DNA from: Sphingobacteriaceae bacterium
Lineage (GTDB): Bacteria > Bacteroidota > Bacteroidia > UBA7662
DNA length: 64,000 nt
NCBI GenBank assembly: GCA_013824115.1
Contig: PNNG01000038.1
Location: 1 to 64,000 of the forward strand
Reading direction: 5' to 3'
Of the stretch, positions 10,978 to 31,085 are shown piece by piece (position 1 is the stretch's first letter; each line of letters starts with the position of its first letter). The position numbers were made by a program, and so were the translations under genes. The notes below the pieces were generated by a model, which did not search any database, was not told where the DNA came from, and was given only the letters and a program-made list of their open reading frames with translations.

Positions 10978-11427
10978 ATGTTTTCAAAATCTTGTGAATA
11001 CGGCCTCCAGGCGATTCTGTACATCGCGTTGCATGCACGACCTGATCGCAAAGTCGGTTTGAAAGAAATCGCCGACAACCAGGATATTCCTGCACATTTC
11101 TTAAGCAAGATTCTCCAGATTTTGGTGAAGTATAAATTGCTCGTTTCTGTAAAAGGTCCCAACGGCGGTTTCGGTCTCTACCGCAAACCCGAAGACATCA
11201 CCTTGTTAGAGGTAGTATCGGCCATCGACGGACTGGATATTTTCGACCGTTGCGGCATTGGCCTCAAGCAGTGCGACGATGCACATCCTTGCCCCATTCA
11301 CAACAAATTCAAGTTTTTGCGCGAAAGCATCCGCAATACCTTGATGAAGGAAACCTTGGCCGACCTCATTTTCACCGTAGAGGAAGGTAAGTCGTACGTT
11401 ACCCTCAAAAACCTCATCGAAGAATAA
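10978..11427 (+). CDS. Rrf2 family transcriptional regulator with three-Cys cluster
   Basis: A 149-aa winged-helix regulator. The N-terminal half carries the Rrf2 fold (SCEYGLQAILYIA, IPAHFLSKILQIL, VKGPNGGFGL wing). Cys92, Cys99 and Cys105 (CGIGLKQCDDAHPC) fall where IscR and NsrR bind a [2Fe-2S] or [4Fe-4S] cluster, so an iron-sulfur, NO or redox sensing role is likely. It is not adjacent to isc/suf genes; it is followed after 3 bases by trmB. Its own promoter is well formed. Confidence 0.92.
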   Translation: MFSKSCEYGLQAILYIALHARPDRKVGLKEIADNQDIPAHFLSKILQILVKYKLLVSVKGPNGGFGLYRKPEDITLLEVVSAIDGLDIFDRCGIGLKQCDDAHPCPIHNKFKFLRESIRNTLMKETLADLIFTVEEGKSYVTLKNLIEE

Positions 11428-28441: not shown

Positions 28442-29620
28442 ATGAGATGGTTGCTTTGCTGGCTGCTTTTACTGCCACAGTGGACTTTATGCCAACAGTA
28501 TGTCCCAGGACAAACTTATTGGTCGGCCGATGGCTACATAGAATACCGCTGCGGAAGCCTGCCCTTGATCATTACCGCCCCACATGGTGGTTATCTGTCG
28601 CCCGACAGCTTGCCAACCCGTGTCTGTCCGGGTGCTACTACCGTACAAGATGGCTTCACCTTAGAACTCGCCCAAGCCATCGACTCCATGTATGCTTTGA
28701 ATCATGCCTGTCGGCCACATGTGATCATTTCGCATTTACACCGCCGCAAACTCGACCCCAACCGCGATTCGAGTGAAGCCAGTTGCGACGATGCGCGCAG
28801 CATGGCCATTTGGCGGGCCTTTCATGGCTTTGTGCAGGCGGCGCGCGATACGGTGCAACAACGGCATGGCAAAGGCTTGCTGCTCGATTTGCATGGACAT
28901 GCCCACACCTTGCAGCGCATTGAATTGGGCTATCAGTTAACCGGAGATCACCTTCGCAGTGGCGATTCGGCCATCAACAGCGCATTCAGGGCACAAAGAA
29001 GTGGCATCCGCAGTTTGGTGATGCTTAATTTAGGCGCGCAAACGCACAGCCAGCTATTGCGCGGACCGCAGGCTTTGGGCACTTGGCTTCATGCATCGGG
29101 TTATCCGTCGGTTCCATCGCAACAAGATCCCACCCCGCAAGCTGGCGAGCCTTTTTTCAGTGGCGGCTACATTACCGAGCGGCATGGCAGCATGTTTGGC
29201 GGTACGGTAGATGCTATTCAGCTGGAACATTATATGACCGGCATCCGCAATACTGCGGCTAACCGCGCGCGCTATGCCGATACCCTGCGACTGGTAACCA
29301 ATCGTTTTTTGGCCACCCACTATTTTGGGAGTACCGCCTTTTTGACGGCTTGTGTAGCAGCGCCTAATGCCTTGCCATTGCAGGGACACTCGAGTCCTTG
29401 GTTTAGGCTTTACCCCAATCCAGGCAGTGCGTTTTACCTTGATAGCGATGCAAATGCTGAGCTTCAACTGTTTGATATACACGGAAAGCGCATGTTCAAG
29501 CAGTCGGTAGCAGCCGGAACGCAGCTGATTTCGCCGGCGCTACCTGCGGGGGTGTACTTGCTCATGCTTCAGTCCGAAAAGCAGCTTGTTGGTTGGGTGC
29601 GCTGGGTGAAAACCCAATAA
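28442..29620 (+). CDS. N-formylglutamate amidohydrolase-like protein with T9SS sorting domain
   Basis: A 392-aa protein. After a signal peptide (residues 1-18, ending TLCQQ), the region 40-300 shows the FGase-like fold: LIITAPHGGY, HLHRRKLDPNRD, LLLDLHGHAH and a late YITERHG, consistent with a metal-dependent amidohydrolase. The C-terminal 75 residues are a type A sorting domain (FRLYPNPGSAFYL ... LPAGVYLLML). FGases usually act in the cytoplasm on N-formylglutamate in histidine breakdown; this one is predicted to be exported to the surface, so its substrate is probably different. It has a terminator upstream, and no his genes are nearby. Confidence 0.82.
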   Translation: MRWLLCWLLLLPQWTLCQQYVPGQTYWSADGYIEYRCGSLPLIITAPHGGYLSPDSLPTRVCPGATTVQDGFTLELAQAIDSMYALNHACRPHVIISHLHRRKLDPNRDSSEASCDDARSMAIWRAFHGFVQAARDTVQQRHGKGLLLDLHGHAHTLQRIELGYQLTGDHLRSGDSAINSAFRAQRSGIRSLVMLNLGAQTHSQLLRGPQALGTWLHASGYPSVPSQQDPTPQAGEPFFSGGYITERHGSMFGGTVDAIQLEHYMTGIRNTAANRARYADTLRLVTNRFLATHYFGSTAFLTACVAAPNALPLQGHSSPWFRLYPNPGSAFYLDSDANAELQLFDIHGKRMFKQSVAAGTQLISPALPAGVYLLMLQSEKQLVGWVRWVKTQ

Positions 29621-29623
29621 TCG

Positions 29624-29701
29624 TCCCTTTAATAAGGATGAAAACGCTATAATGTCCTTATTAGAAGGATAATTAATCAAAAAGCGAACCTTTTAAAAGG
29701 A
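29624..29701 (+). promoter_or_regulatory. Three regularly spaced palindromic boxes (putative operator)
   Basis: Three 15-bp boxes built on CCTT...AAGGA: TCCCTTTAATAAGGA (29624-29638), TCCTTATTAGAAGGA (29655-29669) and AACCTTTTAAAAGGA (29687-29701). Starts are 31 and 32 bp apart, about three helical turns, so all face the same side of the DNA. The third box is a perfect CCTTTTAAAAGG palindrome, lies 9 bases before the TATATTTG box and covers the expected -33 position. This is suited to repression of the ATPase gene that follows. Confidence 0.65.
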
Positions 29702-29710
29702 CGAGTATCG

Positions 29711-29718
29711 TATATTTG
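29711..29718 (+). promoter_or_regulatory. -7 box for AAA ATPase gene
   Basis: TATATTTG matches TAnnTTTG exactly and ends 4 bases before the GTG start at 29723, predicting a leaderless mRNA with a GTG start. Confidence 0.65.
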
Positions 29719-29722
29719 TGAA

Positions 29723-31036
29723 GTGATACGCAAAGAAGTCATACAGCAGCTCATCAAAAACTTCCAAGATCGGCATCAACCGGCCTTGGTAGCGCGCGAA
29801 GAGGCCTTGCCTTTGCACACCCGCAAAGTGGTGGTAGCCAAGGGAGTGCGGCGCTCGGGTAAATCGAGTGCCATGCTTTTGGCCGTTGATGCTTTGCTGG
29901 CCGAGGGCACTTCCATAGAGCAAGTGCTGTACTTGAACTTCGACGATGAACGTTTGCCTTTCACCGCCGAAAGCTTCGACCTCATACTACAGGCCTACCG
30001 CGAGCTCTATCCACACCAGGCCATGCAGCAAGTGTATGTGTTTTTAGATGAGGTGCAGCAATGTGCAGGCTGGGAGCAGTTTGTGCGCAGGCTGTACGAC
30101 CAGGAAACGCAAAACGTATTTGTAACGGGCTCCAATGCGCGGCTGCTTTCGTCGGAGATAGCCACCTCGTTGCGTGGGCGAACCCTGCAATTCGAGTATT
30201 TCCCCTTGTCGTTTGGCGAATATTGCAGCTTTAAAAAAGTGGATCGGAAGTACGGCAGTTCGCGCCAAAACGCCTTGTTGGAGGCTGCGTTCAAAAGCTA
30301 TTACCAGCAAGGGGGCTTTCCCGAACTGGTGCTCGACGAAATGCCCTACCGCGACAAAATACTCCAAGAGTACTACCACCTCATGCTGTACCGCGATATG
30401 GTGGAGCGTTACGACATACGCAACCTGCCTGCCCTGCGCTACTTCATACGCCGCCTCATCGTCAACATCAGCAAGCCTACTTCCATACAGAAGATATTTA
30501 ACGAACTTAAATCGGCCGGACTGGCAGTGAGCAAAAACTCGCTCTATGAATGGGTCGATCAGCTCGAGGCCATCTACCTATTCTTGCCCTTGCCCAAATT
30601 TGAACCTTCCATGGTGAAAGAACAAAGCAGCGAAAAGAAGTACTACCTCATCGACAATGGATTGTTACGCGCATTGAGTCCGGCTTTGAGTGAAGGTCGG
30701 GGCGTGATGCTCGAAAATGTGGTCTATTTGCAACTCCGTCGATTGGCCGATTTATCGAGCCAGTTCTTCTTTTACAAAGGCAAAAAGGAGTGCGATTTTG
30801 TGGTGGCCCGCAACCAACAAGTAGTGCAATTGGTGCAAGTGTGCTGGGAGGTTTACGAGGCCGACACCCTTAAACGCGAAATCGCCGGCCTGCTTGAGGC
30901 GGCCCAAGCCACGGGCTGCAATAACTTATGGCTGGTAACCGATCACCAGGAAGACGAAATACAACAAGACGGCTATACCATACGCATGGTTCCGGCCTGG
31001 AAGTTCTGCTTGTTGCACGAGCGCCGCTCTGCTTGA
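29723..31036 (+). CDS. AAA ATPase with DUF4143 domain
   Basis: A 437-aa protein of the widespread ATP-binding/DUF4143 family. Walker A VRRSGKSSAML (about residue 39), Walker B VYVFLDEVQQ, and VTGSNARLLSSEIATSLRGR form the AAA module. The C-terminal DUF4143 part has YYLIDNGLLRALSP, an ENVVYLQLRR helix and FFYKGKKECDFVVARN, resembling a PD-(D/E)XK nuclease core. Function is not established; such genes occur in many copies in Bacteroidota and are thought to be linked to mobile DNA or defence. The start is a GTG; regulation by the three palindromic boxes upstream is likely. Confidence 0.88.
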   Translation: MIRKEVIQQLIKNFQDRHQPALVAREEALPLHTRKVVVAKGVRRSGKSSAMLLAVDALLAEGTSIEQVLYLNFDDERLPFTAESFDLILQAYRELYPHQAMQQVYVFLDEVQQCAGWEQFVRRLYDQETQNVFVTGSNARLLSSEIATSLRGRTLQFEYFPLSFGEYCSFKKVDRKYGSSRQNALLEAAFKSYYQQGGFPELVLDEMPYRDKILQEYYHLMLYRDMVERYDIRNLPALRYFIRRLIVNISKPTSIQKIFNELKSAGLAVSKNSLYEWVDQLEAIYLFLPLPKFEPSMVKEQSSEKKYYLIDNGLLRALSPALSEGRGVMLENVVYLQLRRLADLSSQFFFYKGKKECDFVVARNQQVVQLVQVCWEVYEADTLKREIAGLLEAAQATGCNNLWLVTDHQEDEIQQDGYTIRMVPAWKFCLLHERRSA

Positions 31037-31065: not shown

Positions 31066-31085
31066 ATTGAGTCCATTAACTCAAT
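31066..31085. terminator. Weak hairpin between convergent genes
   Basis: ATTGAGT (31066-31072) and ACTCAAT (31079-31085) with a 6-base loop, spanning the stop codon of the minus-strand DnaJ-domain gene. No strong T-run on either side. Confidence 0.35.

Follow-up and report, generated by a model that had tools for sequence, protein, structure and literature searches.

Genes of a very common but poorly understood bacterial ATPase family, a candidate anti-virus defence, often carry their own, mostly gene-specific set of evenly spaced DNA palindromes at the promoter (110 of 183 family genes versus 42 of 361 control genes), which suggests that each protein controls its own gene. We arrived at this from a 64,000-nucleotide stretch of a Sphingobacteriaceae genome (GCA_013824115.1, contig PNNG01000038.1, positions 1 to 64,000; hereafter the window), for which an earlier note, made from the sequence alone, had described three palindromic boxes upstream of an AAA/DUF4143 ATPase gene. 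The boxes are real. The note's reading of them as a layout for cooperative repression is supported only in part, as repression and cooperativity are plausible but not shown.

Results

Between the stop codon of the upstream gene (29618-29620) and the GTG start of the ATPase gene at 29723 lie three exact CCTT-N4/5-AAGG sites. Box 1 spans 29624-29638 (TCCCTTTAATAAGGA; core CCTT-N4-AAGG at 29626-29637), box 2 spans 29655-29669 (TCCTTATTAGAAGGA; core with N5 at 29656-29668) and box 3 lies at 29689-29700 (CCTTTTAAAAGG; N4). Box 3 is a perfect 12-bp palindrome, whereas by hand count boxes 1 and 2 pair at 5 of 7 and 6 of 7 positions, respectively, in the 15-bp register. The centres are 30.5 and 32.5 bp apart, or about 2.9 and 3.1 helical turns, where the note had given 31 and 32 bp and three turns each; its start coordinates shift by 1-2 bases. 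A Bacteroidota-type -7 box, TATATTTG, lies on the plus strand at 29711-29718, four bases before the GTG, as the note had stated. Box 3 ends 10 bp before the -7 box, with its centre 20.5 bp 5' of the TTTG of that box and over the expected -33 region, a position inferred from the -7/-33 consensus of Bacteroidota promoters. The layout, promoter overlap and three-turn spacing claimed in the note hold.

In 20,000 dinucleotide shuffles of this 102-bp gap (29621-29722), 19,907 contained no such box and 93 contained one, while none contained two or three. The window as a whole holds 11 such sites (mean of 100 shuffles 2.47, largest 8), 3 of them within 75 bp here. A search for the box elsewhere, which the note had proposed as a check, did not support a genome-wide regulon: the pattern TCCTT-N5-AAGGA is exact only at box 2, and with one mismatch it occurs at 74 sites versus 71 for the reversed control pattern. 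The array is unusual because it is clustered.

The array is not peculiar to this gene. The genome, which is 85% complete, gave 11 DUF4143 ATPase genes, and all 11 have repeats or palindromes in the 160 bp before the start (each at most 5 of 1,000 shuffles on either a direct-repeat or an inverted-repeat test), compared with 0 of 17 other window genes with at least 80 bp free upstream. For one of the 11, L007 (loci of the survey are numbered with the prefix L), a TTG start was chosen by hand, as an ATG-first rule misplaced it; the window gene was entered with its GTG. The sequences mostly differ between paralogues: of 55 gene pairs four exceed their 20 shuffles, one because L003 and L004 share one intergenic region and three weakly. 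The motif of another paralogue, L008, matches exactly at 3 places in the genome, all in its own array (with one mismatch 8 places, 4 in the array, against 9 for the reversed pattern).

We next surveyed loci from other genomes of the class and phylum together with a few plasmid and viral records, dereplicated at 80% identity. Of the family genes, 110 of 183 pass p<=0.01 on either test versus 42 of 361 neighbouring genes; with at least 100 bp free upstream the counts are 85 of 146 versus 28 of 214, and at GC 30-42% they are 35 of 57 versus 12 of 88. A first survey with the ATG-first start rule had given 71 of 115 versus 21 of 218. The controls were left unfiltered and their count is inflated: of the 18 controls with the strongest direct repeats, L189, L204, L209, L210 and L214 lie 80-150 bp from a divergent family start and see its array, and one is the 3' array of L007. 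On the other hand, 73 of 183 family genes show no signal by this test.

Direct-repeat periods are quantised. Among 63 family genes with direct repeats beyond all 300 shuffles, the best period is 22-24 bp in 19, 31-34 bp in 28, 39-43 bp in 13 and something else in 3, corresponding for the three classes to about 2.2, 3.1 and 3.9 helical turns. For the 60 classed genes, the nearest relative below 60% identity has the same class in 55, whereas shuffled labels give 21.1 on average and 35 at most in 1,000. In the window the best lags are 32 and 31. Among relatives of the window type with strong direct repeats the lag is 32-33 bp in 15 of 16 (30 in L257); these 16 are not dereplicated, and 6 of the 6 dereplicated ones are at 32-33. 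The helical phasing is not strict, however, as gaps between single boxes found with a loose pattern scatter, 22 of 39 falling between 27.5 and 34 bp versus 1 of 11 in controls, and that pattern also hits 33 of 84 controls. The period thus goes with the protein subfamily while the sequence of the box can change, which is what one expects if the protein sets the geometry. Period class and motif were not mapped on a full PDC-S01 tree.

The note had named absence of the boxes upstream of orthologues as the outcome that would overturn it, and this outcome did not occur. A scan of further genomes gave relatives at 40-54% identity (the best 80 of 241), of which 76 had at least 100 bp upstream and 39 remained after dereplication at 80% identity. 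The pattern from window box 2 alone, TCCTT-N5-AAGGA, passes p<=0.05 in 20 of 39 (18 at p<=0.01, 12 exact), against 2 of 84 control genes (0 exact). The 20 are labelled as Bacteroidota, Fibrobacterota, Chlorobi, Aquificota, Spirochaetes, Geobacter and other deltaproteobacterial lines, Thermosulfurimonas and one Campylobacterota, although some MAG labels may be wrong. L268 and L271 have three boxes in a row. The remaining 19 do not pass, among them the two closest relatives, L249 (54%, p=0.074) and L250 (53%, p=0.54), 6 of 7 Campylobacterota and both labelled Nitrospirae; by eye, many of these have variants such as GTCTTTC..GAAAG or ATCTT..AAGAT at the same place. We could see no box at L040 (45%), and L129 (52%) has only variant sites. 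The generic repeat test passed only 15 of the 39, fewer than the window box, since single short boxes are below its power. No neighbouring gene family occurs in more than 3 of the 40 loci examined, making a separate regulator co-inherited next door unlikely.

Of 17 window-type genes with a recognisable TAnnTTTG, 8 have a box centre 19-22.5 bp 5' of its TTTG and 5 have one 4.5-10.5 bp 3' of it (7.5-10.5 bp in L249, L250, L251, L252 and L256; 4.5 bp in L273, a weak box), that is, over the -33 element or near the start site; box 3 of the window, at -20.5, was missed by the pattern used.

Operator similarity rises with protein identity, with Z>4 in 0.8% of pairs at 20-25% identity, 8% at 40-45%, 23% at 50-60% and 65% at 60-80%. 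In a regression it depends on similarity of the AAA, lid and winged-helix parts (0.075, 0.074 and 0.100; each 95% interval above 0) and not detectably on the nuclease domain (0.016, -0.059 to 0.071); the winged helix exceeds the nuclease in 98% of gene bootstraps, the lid in 90% and AAA in 88%. The coefficients are small, and a finer sliding-window correlation along the protein is weak and diffuse, reaching at most 0.26 at residues 191-205 and, in one subset, being highest at residues 71-85 and 401-415.

The ATPase gene (29723-31036, plus strand) encodes 437 residues, and many relatives align from residue 1. It matches Pfam AAA_14 (PF13173) and DUF4143 (PF13635) at 120.8 and 72.9 bits against gathering cut-offs of 27 and 28.1, and the PADLOC profile PDLC04787 of the phage-defence candidate PDC-S01 at E=3.9e-108 over residues 30-430. 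An AlphaFold model (pLDDT 89.1, pTM 0.88) predicts, in order, an AAA+ ATPase domain (residues 30-170; 29810-30232), a helical lid, a winged helix (residues 231-310; 30413-30652; helices 235-247, 255-264 and 271-283, strands 287-292 and 305-309) and a C-terminal alpha/beta domain (residues 311-431; 30653-31015). The name winged helix is our reading of the secondary structure and of the fold matches. The best of these, the archaeal STAND-like ATPases SSO1545 (2fna) and PABY2304 (2qen), share the AAA+ and winged-helix fold with Z 16.6 and 16.5 over 273 and 266 residues; they end near residue 320, so that the C-terminal domain is not covered, and we are aware of no DNA-array role for them. CED-4 and NLRs follow as nearly as good matches, and DNA-bound Orc1/Cdc6 (2qby, 2v1u) is found near Z 11. 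Sequence searches found no clear relative among solved structures (best E 0.012), none in NCBIfam at E 0.001 and a best E of 0.25 in PHROGs, while searches of viral contigs returned 6 and 1 relatives.

The PD-(D/E)XK assignment of the C-terminal domain rests on the description of PDC-S01 (PMC12988326) and on the kept residues E331, E356, D358 and Q372; the fold of this domain was not searched alone. Residue 374 (30842-30844) is Cys where 80 of 129 members below 30% identity have Lys, and members at 35% identity or more have Cys (11), Ser (6), Thr or Val (0 Lys of 19), so the nuclease-like domain may be altered or inactive here and the residue pattern does not decide whether this is a PD-(D/E)XK nuclease.

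Some members carry a near copy of the 5' palindrome or array after the stop codon: L003 and L004 in this genome, L077, L099, L107, L153, L155, L157 and L158, and the window-type L041 and L283. L003 and L004 are divergent genes side by side, each with its own long palindrome ending at the start codon and another 22-38 bp after the stop. L007, also in this genome, has at least five units at an exact 23-bp period before its start and four or more at the same period about 390-480 bp after its stop, so 3 of the 11 genes here are flanked on both sides. Overall, 14 of 182 family genes versus 4 of 347 controls match 5' to 3' within 120 bp of the stop, and 8 versus 0 at a score of 25 or more, though L093, L144, L178 and L241 of the 14, two of them among the 8, look like other repeats. 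With a 250-bp window, 11 of 107 genes match 3' but 6 of 107 also match a stretch farther 5'. The L153 palindrome is found exactly twice in its genome, on the two sides of the gene. The window has no 3' copy.

Discussion

We favour, with moderate confidence, the reading that the boxes are a tandem operator for the ATPase gene and that the protein binding them is most likely the ATPase itself. In this view its winged helix, with help from the AAA+ and lid parts, would read a palindrome private to its own subfamily, and several copies lined up every 32-33 bp (23 or about 41 bp in other subfamilies) would let neighbouring protomers contact each other and cover the -33/-7 region, keeping the gene low until ATP state or an infection signal releases it. 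What our analysis establishes are conserved, promoter-proximal, mostly gene-specific and period-quantised arrays that track the protein and recur with it without a shared neighbour gene; that the ATPase binds, that binding represses, that it is cooperative and what releases it are inferences, as neither binding nor expression was measured. Repeated palindromes over the gene's own promoter are conserved with the gene in 20 of 39 relatives, not all. Against this reading, the winged helix of STAND proteins such as CED-4 and NLRs is thought not to bind DNA, and simple autorepression does not explain the copies after the stop codon. Beyond what the note described, the feature is family-wide with a mostly different sequence per paralogue, its period is quantised, and the family, whose function the note called unknown, is a known candidate defence.

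The rivals are each unlikely. Tandem palindromes over a promoter are the classical sign of any repressor, and winged helices of STAND proteins often serve other roles, so the arrays could be operators for separate host repressors, one per ATPase gene or subfamily, encoded elsewhere. This would need many dedicated repressors per genome, since motifs mostly differ between the 11 paralogues, which also led us to reject one shared regulator for the family; moreover, the same box goes with part of the orthologues across phyla without a shared neighbour, and period class follows ATPase kinship.

About equally doubtful is that the palindromes are recognition ends of a mobile single-gene unit on which the ATPase-nuclease acts, with regulation secondary. 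The 3' copies and the variable site of the window gene speak for it, and either such ends or a looping auxiliary operator would explain the 3' copies, though neither was tested. However, 168 of 182 family genes show no 3' match, periodic promoter arrays with a subfamily-specific period fit regulation better, and the window protein has no transposase domain, only AAA_14 and DUF4143 being found. Nor did we find a clean empty site: the ATPase is absent beside the DnaJ-like gene in 7 of 7 family relatives, but so is the gene on its other side (28442-29620, with an N-formylglutamate amidohydrolase-like domain and a Por-type secretion tail below cut-off), so no boundaries could be read; target-site duplications were not looked for, and genes with arrays on both sides and empty sites in close strains were not counted.

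RNA-level control by hairpins of the 5' leader is very unlikely. Several members have one long palindrome close to the start codon (L003, L004), and 5 of the 17 window-type genes above have a box centre 3' of the -7 box or just beyond the expected start site, but in the window all three boxes lie 5' of the -7 box and, from the inferred start site, should not be transcribed, and short, weakly paired boxes at a 32-bp period do not look like an RNA fold. Chance or a low-complexity artefact of AT-rich intergenic DNA, to which the 42 of 361 scoring controls might point, is equally improbable given the dinucleotide shuffles, GC-matched controls, quantised period and conservation in relatives, and at the family level the counts already speak against it.

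PDC-S01 is described as an ATPase fused to a PD-(D/E)XK-superfamily domain and as the fourth most common defence across prokaryotes, with validation pending for most such candidates (PMC12988326); it is among the most abundant candidate defence genes (PMC12988326, PMC13356809), and anti-phage activity was not assayed here. The AAA_14-DUF4143 ATPases are linked to COG1373. Our literature searches on DUF4143, COG1373, PF13635 or PF13173 and PDC-S01 returned no regulatory array, self-operator or worked-out mechanism for the family, although most subscription journals and all preprints lay outside their scope and priority is not proven. One lead from print is a Thermus thermophilus gene with AAA_14 and DUF4143 (TT_P0211), which rose 6.6-fold when a plasmid was present, only in the strain with Argonaute (PMC4406477).

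As a promoter with tandem operators the array is ordinary; what is unusual is that one of the commonest candidate defence families appears to carry private, period-quantised operators that follow the protein. Toxin-antitoxin and phage repressor operators likewise place several palindromes at helical-turn spacing over the promoter of the binder's own gene, but here the supposed binder is an AAA+ ATPase with a nuclease-like domain and the period is quantised at 23, 32 or 41 bp by subfamily. Orc1/Cdc6 initiators also combine AAA+ and winged helix on DNA, but with an origin function and shared rather than private repeats. REP-RAYT units pair a single gene with private palindromes, as some members here do on both sides, but the window protein has no tyrosine-transposase domain and in the one genome tested the palindrome is not dispersed.

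A private DNA site next to each gene offers a direct handle on how the family works, namely whether the protein binds it, in which nucleotide state and with what stoichiometry, and whether phage induces it, as well as many natural protein-site pairs for learning how one fold changes its DNA specificity. It would also explain how a genome can keep 11 related ATPases without cross-talk. More speculatively, and we think improbably, though our data do not rule it out, each PDC-S01-type ATPase might assemble as a regular oligomer on its private array (one protomer or dimer about every 2, 3 or 4 helical turns, set by the subfamily), the array being not just an operator but the docking platform that holds an ATPase-nuclease inactive at its own gene until invading DNA or a viral protein releases it; copies after the gene in some members would close a loop around the gene or mark the ends of a self-transferring unit.

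Two minor features of the window are recorded here. Eight further exact CCTT-N4/5-AAGG sites, at 11339, 41800, 43904, 46204, 47344, 47845, 54554 and 55258, are not explained. Between the convergent ATPase and DnaJ-like genes, ATTGAGT-CCATTA-ACTCAAT at 31066-31085 forms a 7-bp inverted repeat with a T run a few bases on, perhaps a terminator.
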